Shown: piece after piece, positions 38,860-54,347 of the stretch
Numbering within the stretch: position 1 is the first letter of the stretch
How the letters are laid out: each line of letters starts with the position of its first letter
Source: Candidatus Nitrosocaldus sp.
GTDB taxonomy: Archaea > Thermoproteota > Nitrososphaeria > Nitrososphaerales > Nitrosocaldaceae
Length of the DNA: 54,347 bases
Assembly: GCA_025054855.1 (NCBI GenBank)
Contig: JANWZS010000012.1
Location: 1-54,347 of the forward strand
Reading direction: 5' to 3'
Position numbers and translations under genes: made by a program
The notes under the pieces: generated by a model
The model's database searches: none
Told to the model about the DNA's origin: nothing
What the model saw: the letters and a program-made list of their open reading frames with translations, nothing else

Positions 38860-39414
38860 ATGGAGGCGCTGAAGTGGAGGTTCAGAAACAACGCCAGACT
38901 GGTTGAGAAGATAGTAACGTGCATTGCTCTAGGGCAAAAGAGCAAGAGCGATCTCCATCATCTGTTCAATGATATGCATAAACTGTCTGTGATAATGAAT
39001 AGGTTGAAGCGATGCAACATCCTGAGCTATGATGCATGTTCTAGATACTCACTGACCCAGTACGGGAGGTGGCTCCTGATCTGCTACACGCTTGGGATAA
39101 GGCCCGTACAACTTGCCATACTTGCATTATTGTACAACAACTATCATAGGTCCATCGCTGGCAACCTAGGCTGGATAGTGCCTGTGATAAGGAGGGAGGT
39201 TGAGAGGTTATCCGTAGAGCACAGGGTGTACGATGGGGAGTATGCATGGAAGCAGGCCAAGGCCCTCTGTGCCATTGGTTGGTGTAGGCGCTATGGTAGG
39301 GATGGCATAATCCTGGAGGATGCTACGTATGAGATGCTCAAACAGTGGCACGACGATATATACGCACTGTATAGACACCTGAGGAGTGCTGATTGCTATG
39401 AAGTATGTGTATGA
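38860..39414 (+). CDS. Probable winged-helix protein of unknown function
   Basis: The 184-residue protein starts 1 bp after the ParB-like stop codon. The first 70 residues suggest a winged helix-turn-helix (KSDLHHLFNDMHKLSVIMNR, then YSLTQYGRWLL). The middle is helical with aromatic residues, and the C-terminus is Cys-containing. It overlaps the start of virB4 by 17 bp. It could be a regulator or accessory factor for transfer; there is no relaxase signature (no HUH or Tyr motif). Confidence 0.55.
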   Translation: MEALKWRFRNNARLVEKIVTCIALGQKSKSDLHHLFNDMHKLSVIMNRLKRCNILSYDACSRYSLTQYGRWLLICYTLGIRPVQLAILALLYNNYHRSIAGNLGWIVPVIRREVERLSVEHRVYDGEYAWKQAKALCAIGWCRRYGRDGIILEDATYEMLKQWHDDIYALYRHLRSADCYEVCV

Positions 39415-41236
39415 AGTTAGGCCCATAGACCTTCTCTCACTACCAGAAGAGAGGCAGATGAGCATAGTCACGAATAGATTCCTGACTCTGCTGAACTGGC
39501 TCGATGGCCCAATGTCGATATACATGGTCAAGGATCACCTCAGCATAGCTACAAGGGAGTTGAGGGCTACGTTACCAGTTATGAGAACGTTCCTGGAGAG
39601 CCATGAACCCATGGAGCATGTACTCGACTCATTGGGTTACGAGTACTCCAGGATACTGGATAGAGGGCTGCTGAATATAAGCCTGCGCCATAGAAGGTTG
39701 ACCGAAGGCCTAAACCATATCATCATCAACAACAACGATGATGATGAGGAGGAGGATGAGGATGAGGATGAGGAGGGCGATTCGCCTAGATACGCTAGGT
39801 GCTTCATACTCTATAGACTACCGACCAACGCAAACATAGCCTGGATATATGGCATTGCAAGGCTCGCAGATGAGACCATAATAGATGTCATGCCTCTAAG
39901 GCACGATGCTGCACTGAGCAAGATGAAGAGATATACGAGCCTGATGAAGGCTGCCTCCATGAAGTACTCCTCACTAGCATACAAGGCAGGCATAGCGGAG
40001 ATGACTCTGCAAGCGCTGGAGAAGCATGAGACCAAACTATTCAGAGTATGCATAATACCAGTGATAAAGGCCAGAAGCACAAGGGAACTGAATGAGAAGA
40101 GCAGGAGGTTCGTTAGGGATGTGAAGCACCATGCATCACTAGATCCAGTGATGGGGAGGCAGTTGGACCTTCTCATGGGTAACATCAGGAGTGTCATAGT
40201 GGAGCTTGGGAGCATGAGCATACTCTACCCATTCGTGAGTAGTGATATGCTTGAGGTACCTAATGGTATAGTACTTGGTATAAACCTCAACACCGATGCG
40301 CCAGTGATATACGATTACTCGCTTAGGGATAACTATAATGTTATAATACTGGCATCCTCTGGCGCTGGCAAGTCAATGACTGCAAAGATAATGCTCAATA
40401 GACTCCTCGAGAAGATCCCTGATTCTTACGCCTTCATAATAGATCCACAGGGCGAGTACGCAAAGATAGCGGATTATATGAGCGCTGATACCATAGATGT
40501 AGTTAACAACAGTGAGATTGGACTTGATCCATTGAAACTATTTGATGCAGTAACGGCAGGTGATGTTATAGCGGATATAACAATGGCGCCATTGCTGGTT
40601 AGGAAGGAGATAGCGGTTAATGCAGGTAAGGTCGATAGCATCTTCTCACTCTATAATATGCTGAGCGATAGGGCAAAGCCGTACTTGATGGATGTGGTGA
40701 ACAACCATGCCAACGTGTTTAGAGGCGATGCCAGGATGGACAGGAGGAGCGTACTGATGCTGAAGGGGATAAGTTCTACCAATGGATTATCGATGCTATT
40801 ACTGCTATCACTCGCCAAGGTATGGAATGAGATAAACTCACTCAAGGATAACACGCTGAAGATACTACTTGTGGATGAGGGATGGATGCTCTTCAACATC
40901 CCATCCGCTGCAAGATTCGTGAATCTAATAGCCAGAGTAGGGAGGAAGCTTAACGTACTGTTCATCTTCATAACACAGAGACCAGAGGATGTTATAGCGA
41001 ATGAGTATGGTAGAGCACTGTTGGATAATGCTGACACAAAGGTACTGCTGAGGAACAATGAACTGGCAGCTATGAAGATAGCAGAGGCGCTGCAACTCTC
41101 CAGTAAGGAGAGGGAGATGCTCACGACATTCAACAGAGGGGAGGCATTACTGCTTACGAAGGGGCACAGGATCAGGCTCCAGATGGTTGCAGGGGAGAAG
41201 GAGATGAGGCTGTTCTCAACAGACCCGAACCAGTGA
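39398..41236 (+). CDS. VirB4/TrbE-like conjugation ATPase
   Basis: VirB4 powers assembly of, or transport through, type IV secretion systems. The N-terminal 290 residues match the poorly conserved VirB4 domain, with an acidic low-complexity loop (DDDEEEDEDEDEEGD) at about 115-130. The C-terminal RecA-like ATPase has Walker A SSGAGKSMT (about 321-329), AFIIDPQGEYAKIADY, Walker B ILLVDEGWML and the motif FIFITQRPED. ATG 39398 is preferred over GTG 39386. It is the last gene of the plus-strand TFB-like cluster. Confidence 0.85.
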   Translation: MKYVYEVRPIDLLSLPEERQMSIVTNRFLTLLNWLDGPMSIYMVKDHLSIATRELRATLPVMRTFLESHEPMEHVLDSLGYEYSRILDRGLLNISLRHRRLTEGLNHIIINNNDDDEEEDEDEDEEGDSPRYARCFILYRLPTNANIAWIYGIARLADETIIDVMPLRHDAALSKMKRYTSLMKAASMKYSSLAYKAGIAEMTLQALEKHETKLFRVCIIPVIKARSTRELNEKSRRFVRDVKHHASLDPVMGRQLDLLMGNIRSVIVELGSMSILYPFVSSDMLEVPNGIVLGINLNTDAPVIYDYSLRDNYNVIILASSGAGKSMTAKIMLNRLLEKIPDSYAFIIDPQGEYAKIADYMSADTIDVVNNSEIGLDPLKLFDAVTAGDVIADITMAPLLVRKEIAVNAGKVDSIFSLYNMLSDRAKPYLMDVVNNHANVFRGDARMDRRSVLMLKGISSTNGLSMLLLLSLAKVWNEINSLKDNTLKILLVDEGWMLFNIPSAARFVNLIARVGRKLNVLFIFITQRPEDVIANEYGRALLDNADTKVLLRNNELAAMKIAEALQLSSKEREMLTTFNRGEALLLTKGHRIRLQMVAGEKEMRLFSTDPNQ

Positions 41237-47470: not shown

Positions 47471-48853
47471 ATGAGTGGAAGAAGAAGTGATCGCATGATA
47501 GATGTCATCGGGTTCAGTAGCGATGGCAAGGCATACGGAATACCGAGCAGTGATAGGATACATACTGCTATATTCGGTGAGAGCGGTGCAGGAAAGTCGG
47601 AGACGATGAAGCTGCTGATCATGCAGTGTATAAAGCGCAGGCAGGGGTTCATGCTGATAGATGCACATGGCATGCTTGCCAGGGATGTACTCGCTCTGAT
47701 GCCAAGAGAACTGTGGAGCAACACAGTGTACATAAACCCTGCGACTGCCCTATGGTTCAACAGAGCGATCAGCGTGAACCCACTGGCGTATAGAGATGAG
47801 GAGGAGAAGCATGTAGTGATGATGTCGTTCATAAACGTGCTCAAGAACCTCTATGCTGACTCGTGGGGTGATAGGCTCGAGACGATACTGAGGAATGCGG
47901 TGAACGTGCTATTAGATAGCAGCAGGGATGTGACGCTCAAGGATATCAGATCCTTCATAATAGATCCGGAGTTCAGGGACTCCCTGCTCAGGAATGTTAC
48001 GGATCTTGATGTGCTCCACTTCTGGTACGATATATTCGAGAAGAACTACAAGAGGGAGGCTGTTGGAGTTGTGTACAACAAGCTCGATAAGGTACTCTCC
48101 ACACCACTGGCCATGGTCATGCTCGGCTCAAGATCTACCATAGATATCGGGCAGTGCATGAGGGATGGGAGGTTCATACTCGTTGACCTTGCAGATGTAG
48201 TATCTGATGATATAGTGGCATTCCTAGGTTCTTTGCTCATACACCTTGTATATGTTGAGGCGAAGAGGAGCATGAGATCGCAATCATCGCAGAAGAGTAC
48301 ATTCGACCTGTTCATAGACGAGGCCCACCTCTTCCCCTCATTCGCTATAAGGGAGGTGTTGAATACCCTCAGGAAGTTCAATGTGAAGGTTACGATAGCA
48401 ACGCAGAGCATCAACTCGCTCCCAGGCAGCATAGCCAAGGAGATACCTGCGCTATGCAGAACCATAATCTGCTTCAAGTGCGATATCCCAACCGCTACAC
48501 TGCTCAAGGACCTCATGCCACTGAGCAGGGATGAACTCCTATCTCTATCTCTCCACGAGTTCGCATTCTACTCACATGCCTCCCCTCCGGTCACTGGTGT
48601 AGCCATGAGCAAGAGGATAACTGCGAGGGAGTGCAACGACTGGCTCGATGCTGCAAGGTTGAGCGTCGATGTGTATGGTGGCGATGCAGTCCTCATACGT
48701 AGATCCGGGAGTACCAGGATGATGGATCTGCATGTTAATACCAAGACCGGTACAAGTGGGGCTATGAACGATCAGAGCGTGATGAGGGATGGTGCAGCGC
48801 TAGCAGGGCTGGATGCCATGGCAGATGCGAGGAGGGGGAGGCAGAGGGGATGA
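47471..48853 (+). CDS. VirD4/TraG-like coupling ATPase
   Basis: Coupling proteins bring DNA to the conjugation channel. The 460-residue protein has Walker A FGESGAGKSETM (about residues 35-46), FMLIDAHGMLARDVL, Walker B LFIDEAHLFPSF (about 276-287), and the VKVTIATQSINSLPGSI segment that is typical of TraG/TraD C-terminal regions. There is no N-terminal transmembrane helix, unlike bacterial VirD4, so membrane contact may come through partners. It is the last gene of the block; the stop at 48853 is 43 bp before a chromosomal-type gene. Confidence 0.85.
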   Translation: MSGRRSDRMIDVIGFSSDGKAYGIPSSDRIHTAIFGESGAGKSETMKLLIMQCIKRRQGFMLIDAHGMLARDVLALMPRELWSNTVYINPATALWFNRAISVNPLAYRDEEEKHVVMMSFINVLKNLYADSWGDRLETILRNAVNVLLDSSRDVTLKDIRSFIIDPEFRDSLLRNVTDLDVLHFWYDIFEKNYKREAVGVVYNKLDKVLSTPLAMVMLGSRSTIDIGQCMRDGRFILVDLADVVSDDIVAFLGSLLIHLVYVEAKRSMRSQSSQKSTFDLFIDEAHLFPSFAIREVLNTLRKFNVKVTIATQSINSLPGSIAKEIPALCRTIICFKCDIPTATLLKDLMPLSRDELLSLSLHEFAFYSHASPPVTGVAMSKRITARECNDWLDAARLSVDVYGGDAVLIRRSGSTRMMDLHVNTKTGTSGAMNDQSVMRDGAALAGLDAMADARRGRQRG

Positions 48854-48896: not shown

Positions 48897-49580
48897 ATGC
48901 ACAGTGGTCACAGAATAGCGGTGAGGTTCTTCAGGCACACATCAGGCACGTACGATAGGGTTGTGAGACTGACCACGTTCGGGAGGGATGGTGCATGGAA
49001 GAGGTTCATGCTTGGGCTCATCCCGCATGGCGATTACACTGCGCTCGATCTCGCATGTGGTACAGGTATACTGACCATTGCGTTGAGGGAGAGGGTCTCA
49101 ACTGTCTATGGGCTGGATCTGATTCATGATAGCTTGGTGATAGCGGATGGCAAGGCCAAGGGTCTCAACTACTCTGATGTGATGCTCATGAATGCTGCAG
49201 CAGAGTTCATACCGTTGAGGGATTGCACAGTTGATGTGATAACGGCATCGTACCTCGCAAAGTACTGCGATATAGAGAGGGTAGTTAGGGAGTGCAGGAG
49301 GGTTCTGAGGGATGGAGGAGTGATGGTGATGCACGACTTCACTTATCCAGGGGGTGTGATGCGCTACCTGTGGCATGCGTACTTTGCACTTCTAAGGTTC
49401 ATTGGGGTCTTCGTGAGCGAGTGGAGGCCAGCATTCAATGAACTGGATAGGGTTATAGTGGAGAGGAGGGGCTGGGTTGATGAGCTGATGGATGCTCTTA
49501 AGAGGAACGGGTTCAGGGATATAAGGTGCGTAAACCTCACATTCAATACGGCAGCAGTTGTTTATGCAAGGAAGGGCTAG
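48897..49580 (+). CDS. UbiE/MenG-like SAM-dependent methyltransferase
   Basis: The 227-residue protein is a class I methyltransferase: motif I LDLACGTGILTIAL, then GLDLIHDSL and the post-motif DVITASYLAKYCDIERVVRECRRVL, similar to quinone C-methyltransferases. Its N-terminus (FFRHTSGTYDRVVRLTTFGRD) matches the UbiE family opening. Thaumarchaea use menaquinone, so methylation of a quinone precursor is a reasonable guess. It has a TATA-like ACTTTTATC about 25 nt upstream. The nearby chorismate-lyase-like gene strengthens a link with aromatic metabolism. Confidence 0.8.
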   Translation: MHSGHRIAVRFFRHTSGTYDRVVRLTTFGRDGAWKRFMLGLIPHGDYTALDLACGTGILTIALRERVSTVYGLDLIHDSLVIADGKAKGLNYSDVMLMNAAAEFIPLRDCTVDVITASYLAKYCDIERVVRECRRVLRDGGVMVMHDFTYPGGVMRYLWHAYFALLRFIGVFVSEWRPAFNELDRVIVERRGWVDELMDALKRNGFRDIRCVNLTFNTAAVVYARKG

Positions 49581-49663: not shown

Positions 49664-50632
49664 CTATCCCCTCCTCACGCTCTTCACCTCATCCATAACC
49701 GCCCTCACACCCATCCTGTAATCTGGGTATCTGAGCCCCAGACCCAGCATGCTCTTCACCTTAGTGTTGCTTGCCCTCACCGATGCTGTCAATGTATCTA
49801 TAATATCGCTACCTAGAATAAGCCTGGCAAGCCACAGTGGCACCCTGTATGGTCTACTGACACCAAGCATATCTGCTGTGTAGTACACAAAGTCCCTGAA
49901 CATACATGGCTGATCATCGCACACTATGAACCTCTCATCCCCTGGATAGTCCACCTCAACCATGAGCGCTAGTGCATCCACAGCATCATCCACATGGACG
50001 AAGCACCTGTAGTAATCCCCAGAGCCCGGGATCATGAACCCCAGCCTACCCCTCCTCAACCCATCGACCAGTATGCTTGTGAACCATCCTCCATTCCCGT
50101 ACACATCCCCAAGTATGGCAACGCTCAGGGCGAAGCCGTTCCTCCTGCTCGCTTCCCAGAGCAGATTCTCAGCATCACTCCTGAGCCTCGCGAACCAGGT
50201 ACCTGGCCTGTATGGGCTACCCTCATCCACCACCGAGCCATGCACATCACCGAACACACCGGTACCCTGTGCGTACACTACCCTGCTCACCCTACCCTTC
50301 GCACATACTACAGCATCCATAACATTCCTCACCCCATCGATGTTGACTGCGTACTGCAGCCTCCTATCCCTTATCAGTGGGTTCAGTGCTGCAAGGTGGA
50401 AGAGCGCATACGTGCCTATATCATCGGTGATATGCTTCACAGCCCTCATCACACCATCCCTATCGGTTATATCTGCTACGGCGCACCGCCTCACCCCCAT
50501 GGCAGTCAGTCTGCTTGCTGCATCCTGCCTCCTCACCAAGCACCTAACCTCATGCCCCCTCTCCAGAAGCCTCCTCACTAGCCTAACACCTATGAACCCA
50601 GATGCCCCGGTCACAAGCACATCCATGCTCAC
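49664..50632 (-). CDS. NAD-dependent epimerase/dehydratase family (SDR), atypical catalytic residues
   Basis: The 322-residue extended SDR has the NAD motif VTGASGFIGVRL at residues 7-18 and continues with the usual ADITD and FHLAALNP segments. The active-site YxxxK is F147-A-R-L-R151: both the catalytic Tyr and Lys are replaced. A Thr replaces the Ser near GTGVFGDV. The enzyme may have a changed mechanism or be non-catalytic, like the RNA-binding atypical SDRs. Family length and the C-terminal substrate domain are normal. It starts 82 bp from a divergent membrane-protein gene. Confidence 0.85.
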   Translation of the reverse strand: MSMDVLVTGASGFIGVRLVRRLLERGHEVRCLVRRQDAASRLTAMGVRRCAVADITDRDGVMRAVKHITDDIGTYALFHLAALNPLIRDRRLQYAVNIDGVRNVMDAVVCAKGRVSRVVYAQGTGVFGDVHGSVVDEGSPYRPGTWFARLRSDAENLLWEASRRNGFALSVAILGDVYGNGGWFTSILVDGLRRGRLGFMIPGSGDYYRCFVHVDDAVDALALMVEVDYPGDERFIVCDDQPCMFRDFVYYTADMLGVSRPYRVPLWLARLILGSDIIDTLTASVRASNTKVKSMLGLGLRYPDYRMGVRAVMDEVKSVRRG

Positions 50633-50731
50633 CTTTAATATTTCAGGTAATATTAATCATCTCTTGAATTAAGTATAGAGCATTGGCATCGATAAATAAC
50701 TTTTTATCTATGTATGGGCCTATATATTGTA

Positions 50732-51427
50732 ATGTATGATAGCAGGCTGAATGAGTGGTTCGTGCCCAAGTTCGGCCCCCTAAGGTTCAGGGTAGCCATG
50801 GGGATGCTCTTCCTACCATACACTGGTATGTGTGTATCCTTCACAGTGATGGGCTCACTGCTTGCAGATGACCTGCTGTGGGATAGGCTTGCTGCCATAG
50901 TCATAATATACATGCTTGCACTTGGTGTATCTGCACACGCACTCGACAGCATAGGCTCTAGGCGCAAGCCATGGGGGAGTGTGTTCAGCAGGAGATCGCT
51001 CTTGATGGTAGCGGTTGCATCACTCGCAATAGCATACGCTATAGGCATATACTACATAGTGCTTTACGTGCCACTCCTTGCGGTGATAGCTGTGCTGGAG
51101 GGGTTCTTCCTCCTCGCATACAACCTAGAACTCTTCAATGGCAGGTTCCATAACAACCTCTGGTTCTCCATATCGTGGGGAGGTCTTCCCCTGCTCGCTG
51201 GATACATTATGCAGACCAACAGCGTATCCATACCTGCACTCATGGCATCTGCAGCAACCGCACTGGTAGCGTATGCAGAGATAAGGGTCTCGAGGCCGTA
51301 CAAGGAGTTGAAGCGCTCTGGTGCACGGGATGCAAGGATCATCAGGTATGAGAGGATACTCAAGGCTCTGAGCGCTGGTAGCGTGGGGGTAGCGGTACTC
51401 ATGGTCATAGCGAGGTTGGTGGTGCAC
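50732..51427 (+). CDS. Polytopic membrane protein, weak UbiA-prenyltransferase resemblance
   Basis: The protein (start at ATG 50732 from a TTTTTATCT box about 25 nt upstream; ATG 50714 is in frame) has about seven to eight transmembrane helices. The cytoplasmic loop VSAHALDSIGSRRKPWG and the later LAYNLELFNGRFHN hold Asp/Asn at places where UbiA enzymes bind prenyl diphosphate, but the classic NDxxD motif is not intact. The stop codon TGA shares one base with the ATG of the chorismate-lyase-like gene (the reading frame ends at 51430), so the two are coupled. A prenyl or lipid transfer role is plausible only. Confidence 0.6.
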
Positions 51428-51429
51428 TG

Positions 51430-52014
51430 ATGCAGGTATCTGTCAAGGTAGGTGCAGATGGGGACTTTGGGAGCGCAATGCTCATGATGCTGAGGGAGTT
51501 GGAGGAGAGATCATCTATCAGACTTGCCAAGGTCGAGAGGCTTCTGCTTGCAGAGGTGGGCACGGTGGAGCAGATGCTGAGCATACTGATAGATGGCCCC
51601 GTGAGTGTCGATGTGCTGAGGCAGGAGGAGGATATCGGCGAGGGGATCATTGAGAGGGAGGTCAACATATGCAGTCATTCAGGGGAGGTGCTCATGCATG
51701 CAACTAGCATGATAGATGTGGATGCGCTACCTGAGAGCGTGCTGGAGGATATAAGGGCTAGGAGGCTGGGCATAGGGAGCATAATAGCCAAGCACAGGCT
51801 AGAGACTTTCAGGAGGATAGTAGAGGTGGGGTGCAGTTACATGGCCGATGGGTCAGGGCACCGTGAGGAAGGAGGAGGTGGAGGTGGAGGAGGTGGAGGG
51901 CGCACAGTGACAGTCCATAGAGTCTACAGTATAATCTACAATGGTAGGGATGCATTCACAATAAGGGAGGAGTTCATATCTGATGTCATAAGGAGGCTCG
52001 CATCGCTTTCATGA
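51430..52014 (+). CDS. Chorismate pyruvate-lyase-like protein (DUF98)
   Basis: The protein matches the DUF98/chorismate lyase fold: LLLAEVGTVEQMLSILIDGPV, SVDVLRQEE, IIEREVNICS, ATSMIDVDALPESVLEDI, then the signature IGSIIAKHRLETFRRIVEVG and VYSIIYNGRDAFTIREEF. Such enzymes make 4-hydroxybenzoate and pyruvate from chorismate. A Gly-rich run (ten glycines, about residues 148-157), coded by GGA/GGT repeats, is inserted before the last strands. It is the second gene of a coupled pair with the membrane protein. Confidence 0.78.
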   Translation: MQVSVKVGADGDFGSAMLMMLRELEERSSIRLAKVERLLLAEVGTVEQMLSILIDGPVSVDVLRQEEDIGEGIIEREVNICSHSGEVLMHATSMIDVDALPESVLEDIRARRLGIGSIIAKHRLETFRRIVEVGCSYMADGSGHREEGGGGGGGGGGRTVTVHRVYSIIYNGRDAFTIREEFISDVIRRLASLS

Positions 52015-52044
52015 CCGTACTACAGTAGAGTCAAGCCAAGGATA

Positions 52045-52470
52045 CTACACGGTCTTAGCCCTCTTATCCTTCACCCTGGTAGTGAACCTGCTCCTACTGA
52101 TTATGAACCTCTCATGCACAGCCTCCCCGACCTTCTCACGCTCATCGTGCACTTCCACATGGAAGAGGAGCCTCCTACCATCTATGCTTGCTAGTGATGC
52201 ACGTACCCTTATGCTCATACCTAGGGGTGTCGGGGCGATATGCCTTGCATCTATCCTCACACCTACCGTATCCTCATCATCGTGAAGGTATGGCTTGACC
52301 ATATCCCTGCAGAGCCTCTCCATTGCATCTATCATGCTTGGTGTTGATAGCACTCTCCCATCATCTCCGAGGAAGTCTATGACCATGTTAGCGTTCACAC
52401 TCACAACCCTCTCCATCTCCAGCCCTGGTCTGAGCCCTGGGTTCACATCATGGCCTCTCATCTCTGCCAT
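52045..52470 (-). CDS. Hotdog-fold thioesterase, FlK-like
   Basis: The 141-residue protein (ATG 52470, with TTTATCTTA about 25 nt upstream) resembles fluoroacetyl-CoA thioesterase-like hotdog proteins: VSVNANMVIDFLGDDGRVLSTPSMIDAMERL, then VGVRIDARHIAPTPLG and FHVEVHDEREKVGEAVHERF. The FlK catalytic set of Thr, Glu and His appears as T in STPS, E in MERL and H in ARHIAPTP. The frame extends to 52587, but that would cover the CRISPR-like repeat and has no family match. It may clear an unwanted acyl-CoA. It faces the chorismate-lyase-like gene, 30 bp away. Confidence 0.82.
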   Translation of the reverse strand: MAEMRGHDVNPGLRPGLEMERVVSVNANMVIDFLGDDGRVLSTPSMIDAMERLCRDMVKPYLHDDEDTVGVRIDARHIAPTPLGMSIRVRASLASIDGRRLLFHVEVHDEREKVGEAVHERFIISRSRFTTRVKDKRAKTV

Positions 52471-52580
52471 TGGGACGGGTGTGGAATGGCATAAGATAAA
52501 TGTTCTGTCAACACTCGATTTACTGGTAGATGGGGATAGCATACGCATCAGTCCGTCCGTCTGCTCAGGAGTAGATCGAT

Positions 52581-52613
52581 CTCTCAATTCCCTGAACGTA
52601 GCCTATCTACTAC
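52581..52613. repeat. Degenerate solitary CRISPR repeat
   Basis: The first 18 bases, CTCTCAATTCCCTGAACG, equal those of the array repeat 1.1 kb to the right. Six bases of the middle (GAGTTA) and one further base are missing, and the end is TAGCCTATCTACTAC. Orientation is the same as in the array. It lies about 110 bp upstream of the thioesterase start. The surrounding gap 52614-52993 holds no gene that I can support. Confidence 0.85.
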
Positions 52614-52993
52614 AGTAAGGTCAATGCATGTGTAGCCAGCATCTTAATTCAGCATGGGGCATAAGGAAGAGGAGAGGAGGGTATCTATACCACCACCATC
52701 AGATGCAAGGAGTCAGATGCTTCAACTACATGATGATCTGAGAGGCTCATAACATCTGCGGTTATAGATTGCGTGCTGGATGGAGGATGGGTATGTGGGT
52801 ATGGCAGGCTTGTGCCGTTGAGTACAAGTTAATGCTGGTAAGGCATACAGCTACCATAGGCATGATAGCACTGCTGCACTGCTGGAGGATGTATGCAAGA
52901 GGGTCCCTTCTGCATGTGAGAATATATATGAAGAGGCATACCATGAACCTGGATGTTGTAAACTTTATATTGGTGGGAATGTAAGTGGGAATT

Positions 52994-53239
52994 ATGGATT
53001 CAGTTATGAAGATGGATGAGAAAGGAAGGATAACCATCCCCAAGGAGATAAGGGATAGAGTACGATCCAAGAGGTTTAGGATAGATGTTGAGGATGAGAA
53101 GATCATCCTTCTTCCCATTAGAAGCGAGGCTGAGATCGAGAGATACTATGGCATATTCTGTGGGAATGTTGGGGATATGGATGTGGATAAGATTCTTCGG
53201 GATGGTTTAAGGAAACGTGCTAGAGAATTGATGAGATAA
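52994..53239 (+). CDS. AbrB/SpoVT-type antitoxin (VapB-like)
   Basis: The 81-residue protein starts with the swapped-hairpin AbrB motif KMDEKGRITIPKEIRDRV, which binds DNA. The C-terminal 40 residues (IERYYGIFCGNVGDMDVDKIL) form the toxin-binding tail typical of VapB proteins in archaea. ATG 52994 is chosen over the GTG at 52985. It is followed 57 bp later by the PIN-domain gene. VapB would neutralise VapC and repress the operon. Confidence 0.85.
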   Translation: MDSVMKMDEKGRITIPKEIRDRVRSKRFRIDVEDEKIILLPIRSEAEIERYYGIFCGNVGDMDVDKILRDGLRKRARELMR

Positions 53240-53296
53240 GATGAATGCTATTAGAACATCTACTACTAAGCGAGGATTAGAAAAGAGTGATGTGTG

Positions 53297-53677
53297 ATGA
53301 GAAGATACTTTGATGTCAACGTATTCGTCTATTATCTTATTGCAGATAAGAAGTTCGGCGAGATAGCAAAGAGATGGTTGAAGGAGAGCGAAGAGGTATT
53401 AACGGCCCAGATCACTGTATTCGAGTTATATGTGATTCTGCAGGAGTTGACCAATGCAGAGGAGAGCAACCTTGTAAAGAATATAATAGGTGCCATGGAG
53501 GCTTTGGCAGTAGAGTTTATCCCAATAGATGACTGGTCTAAAGTGATAGATGTTATGAAGAGATATGGTCTAGATTTTGAGGATTCTATTCACGTCTACT
53601 CTGCAATCAGTGCCAATGTGGATGAGATAATAAGCAATGATGATGAACTTAAGAAGAAAGTAAATGCTAGATTCTGA
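53297..53677 (+). CDS. PIN-domain ribonuclease toxin (VapC-like)
   Basis: The 126-residue protein has the PIN fold with acidic residues at Asp6 (RRYFDVNVFVYYL), Glu in ITVFELYVIL, Asp in LDFEDSIHVYSAI and Asp in EIISNDDELKK, the four that hold catalytic magnesium. The length is normal for VapC and the gene looks intact, so an active toxin is likely. The stop codon is only 4 bp before the first CRISPR repeat. Start: ATG 53297, with GTG 53294 adjacent. Confidence 0.88.
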   Translation: MRRYFDVNVFVYYLIADKKFGEIAKRWLKESEEVLTAQITVFELYVILQELTNAEESNLVKNIIGAMEALAVEFIPIDDWSKVIDVMKRYGLDFEDSIHVYSAISANVDEIISNDDELKKKVNARF

Positions 53678-53681
53678 CTTG

Positions 53682-54347
53682 CTCTCAATTCCCTGAACGG
53701 AGTTATAGCCTGTGCTACTCGTGTGCGATGGCAGTACACTGCGAATGGTTGATAAGCCTCTCAATTCCCTGAACGGAGTTATAGCCTATGCTACACAGCG
53801 TCTCATTCAACGCATAACGTCGTCGTTATTACGCACTCTCAATTCCCTGAACGGAGTTATAGCCTATGCTACAATTGAGTAAGTATACATTTAATCAGTT
53901 CAAGTTGAGTGCCTCTCAATTCCCTGAACGGAGTTATAGCCTATGCTACTCCTTCTGAATATTCTCCAGTAACTCCTCAATCTTCTGTATGCTCTCAATT
54001 CCCTGAACGGAGTTATAGCCTATGCTACATGGGTCTTCTTGATAAGGGTAGTCGACGAATGGGACCTACCTCTCAATTCCCTGAACGGAGTTATAGCCTG
54101 TGCTACATCTCTGCAAAAACATCTGCGAAAGGTTGCTCGCCGCAAAAACTCTCAATTCCCTGAACGGAGTTATAGCCTGTGCTACCGTAAAAAGCTGGAC
54201 TTTCGTACCTGAAACGAGTATGCTCTATATTGTCTCTCAATTCCCTGAACGGAGTTATAGCCTGTGCTACAGCAAATACTGCAGGCGCAGCATAGAAATA
54301 CTAAGTATCTCTCAATTCCCTGAACGGAGTTATAGCCTGTGCTACTA
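53682..54347 (-). CRISPR. CRISPR array, at least nine 37-bp repeats, runs past the window edge
   Basis: Repeats start at 53682, 53758, 53836, 53913, 53992, 54070, 54149, 54234 and 54309. Spacers are 38-48 bp. Repeats are identical except for base 32: A in repeats 2-5, G in repeat 1 and in 6-9. Read on the minus strand the repeat begins GTAGCAYAGGC and ends GGGAATTGAGAG, like archaeal repeats whose last 8 nt (ATTGAAAS type) form the crRNA 5' handle. Transcription is therefore probably leftward, with the leader beyond the right edge and the oldest spacers next to vapC. No cas gene is in the window, so the subtype cannot be set. Confidence 0.97.

Follow-up and report, generated by a model that had tools for sequence, protein, structure and literature searches.

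What an ammonia-oxidising archaeon makes with genes resembling ubiC, ubiA and ubiE is the question raised by a locus of a Candidatus Nitrosocaldus genome (assembly GCA_025054855.1, contig JANWZS010000012.1, positions 1 to 54,347; this whole stretch of 54,347 nucleotides is called the window below). The locus encodes a UbiE-like methyltransferase (MT), a polytopic membrane protein (MEM) and a chorismate-lyase-like protein of family DUF98. The original prediction assigned UbiC, UbiA and UbiE activities to the three proteins, forming a 4-hydroxybenzoate-based route to a prenylated aromatic compound. Our analysis suggests that MT and MEM form the centre of a lipid-making module in which MEM would be a non-canonical enzyme of UbiA fold, the product probably being a methylated prenyl-aromatic membrane lipid. 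We put the probability of this reading at roughly 45%. The genes noted in the original prediction are real and their positions correct, including the single base shared by the DUF98 and membrane protein genes and the methyltransferase nearby:

48897-49580, + strand: MT, UbiE-like S-adenosylmethionine (SAM) methyltransferase (PF01209, 75.9 bits, cut-off 20.1), the core partner of MEM
49664-50632, - strand: SDR, an NAD-dependent epimerase-reductase (PF01370, 99.7 bits), lying between MT and MEM in Nitrosocaldaceae
50732-51430, + strand: MEM, polytopic membrane protein predicted to adopt a UbiA fold (model, Z 15.2 in VIA-align 2) and devoid of the Asp motifs
51430-52014, + strand: DUF98 chorismate-lyase-like protein (PF01947, 31.9 bits, cut-off 22; structural match to 2nwi)
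52045-52470, - strand: FlK/4HBT-like thioesterase (PF22636, 121.1 bits), a neighbour in Nitrosocaldus only

The longest open reading frame of MEM is 50714-51430, and the start at 50732, from which residues are numbered here, agrees with the starts of its relatives. At position 51430 the TGA of MEM ends and the ATG of DUF98 begins, the pattern expected of co-translated genes. The open reading frame of the thioesterase is 52045-52587 on the minus strand; because its relatives align only from residue 40-44, the true start probably lies near 52470. The host genome measures 1.56 Mb in 42 contigs, and its archaeal AmoA match (2.0e-107) marks it as that of an ammonia oxidiser. We compared it within a set of 101 genomes, the window's own included, and within a set of named loci comprising the best 80 of 213 MEM loci (46 archaeal, 34 bacterial). 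Among these 80 loci the closest genus-named relatives are Candidatus Nitrosocaldus, with MEM identities of 79% (L066) and 77% (L068).

The gene set itself has already been published in Nitrosocaldus as labels. In the accessible part of PMC5797428 (Abby et al. 2018), UbiC, UbiA, RmlB, UbiE, CHLP and GGPS are labelled in the legend to two integrated elements of N. cavascurensis, of which ICE-2 is described as carrying a range of metabolic proteins plus topoisomerase IA; a pathway built from these genes is not discussed in that part. The labels are the same as for the present cluster. There they denote element cargo, whereas here the MT-MEM pair proves widespread outside such elements and MEM is devoid of UbiA motifs. 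Beyond that legend, a search of CC-licensed papers, mostly by titles and abstracts, returned no description of the MEM family or of a 4-hydroxybenzoate route in ammonia oxidisers, nor any mention of the motif loss in MEM, the MT-MEM pairing or the bacterial spread reported below.

Whether the membrane protein has a UbiA fold was left by the original prediction as a point to check, and modelling predicts such a fold. The AlphaFold2 model, built with 30 homologues, has a mean predicted local distance difference test score of 92.9. The top Foldseek matches were weak (UBIAD1, E 0.01; DGGGP synthase, E 0.02). Realignment with VIA-align 2 gave AfUbiA 4tq4_A as the best match, with a Z of 15.2 and 202 residues of the 288-residue chain aligned at 3.4 Å. 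Chains of the UbiA family took ranks 1-9, and soluble prenyl synthases followed at a Z of about 12. Across the superfamily (AfUbiA 4tq3-6, ApUbiA 4od4/5, UBIAD1 and DGGGP synthase) Z ranged from 13.7 to 15.2. On this model we regard the UbiA fold of MEM as well supported rather than proven.

The aspartate-rich motifs of UbiA enzymes are gone from this predicted fold. The first motif (NDxxDxxxD), searched for as NxxxDxxxD, occurs in none of the 80 loci, whereas N/SxxxDxxxD is present in four of five ordinary UbiA proteins of the same genome (L001-L004) and the fifth (L005) has the variant NDYWDYRSGID. The register of the first motif in MEM is not set by sequence; no register yields two conserved acidic residues, since D72 is the sole invariant acidic residue of the stretch 62-82. 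No conserved DxxxD, the second motif, is found at positions 178-197 of the 80 loci. Most rows there are acidic only at position 183 (Glu in 72 of 80), and position 192 is acidic in 39. In place of the Asp motifs MEM carries H69 and D72, a KPWG stretch whose W81 is invariant, and E183 I S R x Y K. H69, D72, S187, Y190 and K191 are each present in 80 of 80 loci, and R188 is Arg in 77. Many polar residues are invariant, among them H69, D72, E123, N131, E133, H140, Y190 and K191. Because the motifs are lost and the substitute residues conserved, MEM must, as far as its sequence tells, work differently from an ordinary Mg-dependent prenyltransferase, or not as one. The name 4-hydroxybenzoate prenyltransferase is therefore not established for it. 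The five UbiA proteins of the genome that exceed the PF01040 cut-off are encoded on other contigs, outside the MEM cluster, so the cluster contains no canonical UbiA of a ubiquinone-type (UbiC-UbiA-UbiE) pathway.

The core partner of MEM is the METHYLTRANSFERASE (MT). It resembles the UbiE/MenG C-methyltransferases, MpqE included, in passing PF01209 and in keeping a GTG-type stretch, which we take to be the SAM motif. It differs from them in staying under the NCBIfam subfamily and equivalog cut-offs (TIGR01934, 99.7 against 158 bits; PRK00216.1-5, 94.6 against 216) and thus represents a separate subfamily. The MpqE equivalog of the methyl-plastoquinone (Mpq) pathway was likewise missed by a wide margin (73.1 against 335 bits); the MT of a Nitrospira locus (L129) scored 76.0 bits against the same model.

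A single-sequence search found MEM in 56 of the 101 genomes, with E values of only 4e-5 to 8e-9 for the four weak matches. MT was found in 52 genomes by its profile at E 1e-20. Both occurred together in 51 genomes (Fisher's test, 9e-22, uncorrected for kinship). In 46 of these 51 they lie at most 2 kb apart, which bears out the linkage in relatives on which the original prediction depended; in the other five they are on different contigs. Five genomes have MEM without an MT at this threshold (G010, G011, G023, G028 and G047), and the only one with MT but no MEM (G003) is incomplete. The 46 pairs comprise 29 co-directional, 13 divergent and 4 convergent arrangements; adjacency must therefore have been re-formed or kept through inversions. 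The two genes adjoin in genomes of several families beyond Nitrosocaldaceae. A model built from the named loci themselves, some of which end early, detects MT in the retrieved sequence of 44 of the 46 archaeal and 21 of the 34 bacterial ones. Pairwise distances of MEM and MT correlate with an r of 0.88 over 63 loci in a comparison made without a control gene, as expected of genes inherited together.

The third protein is, on family score and predicted structure, a genuine chorismate-lyase relative. It shares with the DUF98/Rv2949c-like chorismate pyruvate-lyases (PF01947; AF1396) the family cut-off, the fold and the Arg and Glu positions. The best structural match of the model is 2nwi_A (AF1396; E 4e-8, TM-score 0.59/0.71), and a profile search picks the same chain by sequence (7e-13). 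The chorismate-binding Arg and Glu, named beforehand as residues whose loss would speak against the assignment, are both retained: R76 and E180 are invariant over 18 alignment rows, and each falls into the same column as its counterpart in the three UbiC proteins of PF04345 type, the four Nitrospirota proteins and the two stand-alone archaeal DUF98 proteins compared. We take these columns to correspond to the Arg and Glu with which E. coli UbiC binds its substrate. With these residues in place, the gene probably serves to make 4-hydroxybenzoate in this archaeon. The protein also differs from known DUF98/UbiC systems, as the five archaeal MEM-linked rows are without 13-15 columns that are present in the stand-alone DUF98 and UbiC rows, and it scores only 13.3 bits against the cyanobacterial chorismate-lyase equivalog. 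One genome (G047) has two DUF98 matches, one adjoining MEM and one elsewhere (G047:C24:16593 and G047:C22:7175), and the MEM-linked form thus looks like a separate paralogue. A loop at about 51866-51902 of the window encodes a run of eleven glycines, with other inserts in the Nitrosocaldus relatives and low model confidence. A DUF98 candidate at L061 was dropped from the alignment as unrelated (cupin-like by eye), as was the short L063 row, which is shown in the later Arg/Glu comparison. An initial contig scan with DUF98 as query gave no matches.

Single-sequence searches matched DUF98 in 31 of the 101 genomes, and in 22 of these 31 it adjoins MEM; in Nitrosocaldus and several further archaeal lineages it directly follows MEM. 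It is present in 40 of the 46 archaeal MEM loci and in none of the 34 bacterial ones. We regard it as an optional member of the module.

Further candidate members were found downstream. In a relative assembled as one contig (G001) the order is a VirD4-like gene, MT, SDR, MEM, DUF98, the thioesterase on the minus strand, a prenyl synthase, a flavoprotein resembling geranylgeranyl reductase and a topoisomerase IA-like gene recognised by eye. A run of MEM, DUF98, prenyl synthase and reductase-like gene lies on a single contig of G007 (family f2), while neither a prenyl synthase nor a reductase-like gene was found beside MEM in L076 of the same family. In the window's own genome (G000) the prenyl synthase and reductase pair is on contig C37. 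Beside MEM, a prenyl synthase scoring at least 170 bits occurs in 8 of the 34 bacterial loci and in L067, and a reductase-like gene in L067, L087 and L125, that is, in 2 of the 34 bacterial loci; the small models used for both were derived from members of these same loci. The prenyl synthases match PF00348; read by eye, their first motif is DDxxD and their second DDxxD or DDxxE. The best NCBIfam match of the flavoprotein is the geranylgeranyl-reductase superfamily, under its cut-off. Such flavoproteins fall into two families (L190:246-1277): four of the ten genomes searched (G006, G007, G012 and G056) have two matches each, five Nitrosocaldus genomes have only the cluster-linked one, and G058 has one at 39%.

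Put together, the reading that we favour is as follows. DUF98 would cleave chorismate to 4-hydroxybenzoate in this archaeon and the prenyl synthase would make the chain. MEM would join chain and ring or rearrange the joined product, with His, Lys and Arg residues replacing the Asp-Mg2+ grip on the diphosphate. MT would then methylate the ring and the reductase-like flavoprotein may saturate the chain. A prenyl-aromatic membrane lipid bearing a methyl group would be the simplest product; that it serves as a redox carrier or an antioxidant is guesswork.

A number of results weigh against this reading. VIA-align itself warns that a best Z of 14 is typical of mostly helical models for which Foldseek gives no clear match, and 15.2 is not much higher. 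MEM scores 17.3 bits against the Pfam UbiA family PF01040, under the cut-off of 34.2, so that a UbiA-like nature is undecidable from sequence and finds its support in the predicted fold; two relatives reach 22.2 (L132) and 17.3 bits (L129). The alignment spans residues 91-192 of the longer open reading frame and profile positions 64-160, which we read as the region between the two Asp motifs only. Apart from its missing motifs, MEM thus differs from the superfamily in its score, its length of about 232 residues and the unmatched profile positions beyond 160. A profile search of PDB sequences with MEM gave no match up to E 10, and hhalign of MEM against the five ordinary UbiA proteins gave a probability of 3% (E 0.013), although PWG aligned with PSG; kinship is therefore unproven by sequence profiles alone. 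Only three of the five ordinary UbiA proteins have DxxxD at the second site, L001 and L002 being without it, so the loss of the second motif is weak evidence and that of the first is the telling one.

The distribution of DUF98 is also unfavourable. Ten ammonia oxidisers have MEM without a single-sequence DUF98 match. In eight of them neither PF01947 nor the more sensitive A3 profile, which recovered the DUF98 copy in five of five positive controls, detects one; the other two (G058 and G079) carry a divergent DUF98 at some 56-58 kb from MEM. 4-Hydroxybenzoate is therefore not demonstrable as the general substrate of MEM. One genome (G037) has DUF98 without MEM. In four Nitrospirota loci (L172, L174, L176 and L177) DUF98 instead has a canonical UbiA gene, complete with the usual NDxxD, at a distance of about 1 kb or less; one of these UbiA proteins, truncated by the end of the locus, scores 256 bits as 4-hydroxybenzoate octaprenyltransferase (cut-off 275). 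Of the 33 MEM-bearing bacterial genomes searched (L135 was omitted as the same isolate, Bin_24_1, as L128), only 14 match PF01947. Within these fourteen fall all four genomes positive for PF04345 and all five positive by the A3 profile. The idea that bacteria are spared DUF98 since their ubiquinone pathway supplies 4-hydroxybenzoate is unsupported by these PF04345 and PF01947 counts. MEM itself matched 152 of 300 genomes within the class, some of them weakly. Among 42 AmoA-bearing genomes, single-sequence searches detected MEM in 29 and DUF98 in 19, and the menaquinone gene PF02621 was found in 41. As 13 of these 42 have no MEM at the search threshold, its product is not essential to ammonia oxidation. 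The PF02621 match is exactly one in 40 of the 42 (e.g. G000:C8:20646-21425, L146), while some other Nitrososphaeria (G008, G009, G016 and G042) have two side by side.

With many carriers devoid of DUF98, a strong rival remains, although we hold it to be somewhat unlikely: MT and MEM may modify an isoprenoid or quinone already present in the host (for archaea menaquinone, for bacteria methyl-plastoquinone or ubiquinone), with no part played by 4-hydroxybenzoate, DUF98 being a lineage-specific neighbour that supplies something else. The pair persists in the eight ammonia oxidisers that have MEM and no DUF98 by any search, seven of which have MT at E 1e-20, and 19 of the 33 bacterial MEM genomes have no PF01947 match. 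Nitrospira is a carrier, and the accessible part of PMC12324825 (Bale et al. 2025) states that two Nitrospira contain methyl-plastoquinones only. In five genomes of genus g8, furthermore, MEM lies about 9-15 kb from the PF02621 menaquinone gene, with MqnC/MqnE-like genes between them in G078. Tailoring of this kind would leave the frequent adjacency of DUF98 and archaeal MEM unaccounted for, and the prenyl synthase genes at MEM suggest synthesis from scratch. A link of MEM to menaquinone synthesis itself was set aside, as MEM is absent from several PF02621 genomes and present in bacteria with other quinones. The opposite proposal, in which MEM is an ordinary prenyltransferase on a UbiC-UbiA-UbiE route to a 4-hydroxybenzoate-derived respiratory quinone, appears improbable to us. 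Three linked homologues, the predicted fold and the retained Arg and Glu speak for it, and these parts of the original prediction stand. Prenyltransferase function is not established, given the lost Asp motifs, and neither is 4-hydroxybenzoate as a general substrate. MT falls far short of the equivalog cut-offs for ubiquinone and methyl-plastoquinone synthesis, we recognised neither a decarboxylase nor a hydroxylase among the genes of the cluster, and the AmoA-bearing genomes without MEM contrast with the near-universal PF02621. Menaquinone is reportedly the quinone of ammonia-oxidising archaea. Futalosine-pathway genes in Thaumarchaeota are described in the accessible part of PMC3914697 (Genome Biol Evol 2014). 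A ubiquinone-like respiratory route in ammonia-oxidising archaea is not shown by these genes.

The lost motifs and the near-constant pairing with MT would also fit a MEM that is a pseudo-enzyme or scaffold, anchoring MT at the membrane and leaving the chemistry to it. We see little chance of this, as many invariant polar residues, some of them at the places of UbiA active-site motifs as inferred from the Pfam alignment, are difficult to reconcile with a scaffold. The identity of 52-61% to the window protein over all 34 bacterial loci is also high for one, though these loci were chosen as best matches. Finally, the genes might be recent cargo of a conjugative element with little meaning for the host. 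A VirD4-like gene precedes MT in Nitrosocaldus, and the legend in PMC5797428 places the gene set among genes of integrated elements. The MEM tree nevertheless follows host family (Nitrosocaldaceae, 97/86; Nitrososphaeraceae and allies, 99/94), and this together with the adjoining MT-MEM genes of several other families makes the cargo explanation very improbable.

The same tree (86 rows) places the 34 bacterial sequences on one side of a branch (100/99). Under midpoint rooting the bacterial group joins the Thaumarchaeota isolate SAT137 (87/79) and the other archaea fall outside. Long branches meet in the outer part of the tree (as do L060 and L061, among others), which leaves the order of the outer archaeal groups unsure. 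The same bacterial group appears in the MT tree (20 rows, 100/99). These topologies, midpoint-rooted and drawn from the best 80 of 213 loci, fit one joint transfer of MT and MEM from Nitrososphaeria to bacteria. Among the bacterial carriers are two Ramlibacter records that lack the label of a metagenome-assembled genome and appear to be isolates, and one metagenome-assembled genome with a complete chromosome (L113, L123 and L094), so mis-binning is unlikely to explain them all.

The remaining genes of the locus appear to be of narrower scope. SDR is common to Nitrosocaldaceae and the f2 lineage and lies near MEM in L076; tblastn identities are 64-70% for the Nitrosocaldus loci, 41% for L130 (Nitrosothermus) and 48% for L076 and L046. 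It is probably the RmlB of PMC5797428. The thioesterase, which the original prediction thought might act on a related acyl-CoA, is a real gene, but among the loci compared its homologues (72-76%) adjoin MEM only in Nitrosocaldus. It was dropped as a module member and is probably a genus-level neighbour outside the module.

The module of the window stands in a conjugative-element region that resembles the N. cavascurensis elements and includes two ATPases:

39386-41236: TraG/VirB4-like ATPase of the conjugative-element region
47471-48853, + strand: HerA/VirD4-like ATPase (PF01935, 1.7e-7; PF10412, 6.8e-5), context outside the module

The VirD4-like gene upstream of MT is also present in L066, L067, L068 and L187. 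Positions 53671-54346 form a CRISPR-like array that reaches the contig end, with nine copies of a repeat containing CTCTCAATTCCCTGAACG at a spacing of 75-85. A lone copy of this 18-mer lies next to the thioesterase gene at 52581-52598. Since the prenyl synthase follows the thioesterase in G001 but is on another contig here, these repeats may be where the sequence breaks. A small open reading frame that looks AbrB-like by eye (52985-53239) is closely followed by a PIN-domain toxin-like gene (53294-53677, PF01850); the two are a probable VapBC-type pair.

The widest interpretation is one that we consider doubtful: MEM would be the first member of a new enzyme class that has the UbiA fold but a His/Asp and Lys/Arg site in place of the Asp-Mg2+ grip on the prenyl diphosphate, and would make with MT an undescribed methylated prenyl-aromatic lipid. 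The pair would have originated in Nitrososphaeria and passed once, MT and MEM together, to bacteria including nitrite oxidisers and other lithotrophs. If this is true, ammonia-oxidising archaea and Nitrospira-type bacteria, both drivers of nitrification, would share a lipid for which we found no description, and MEM would extend the mechanism of the UbiA superfamily.

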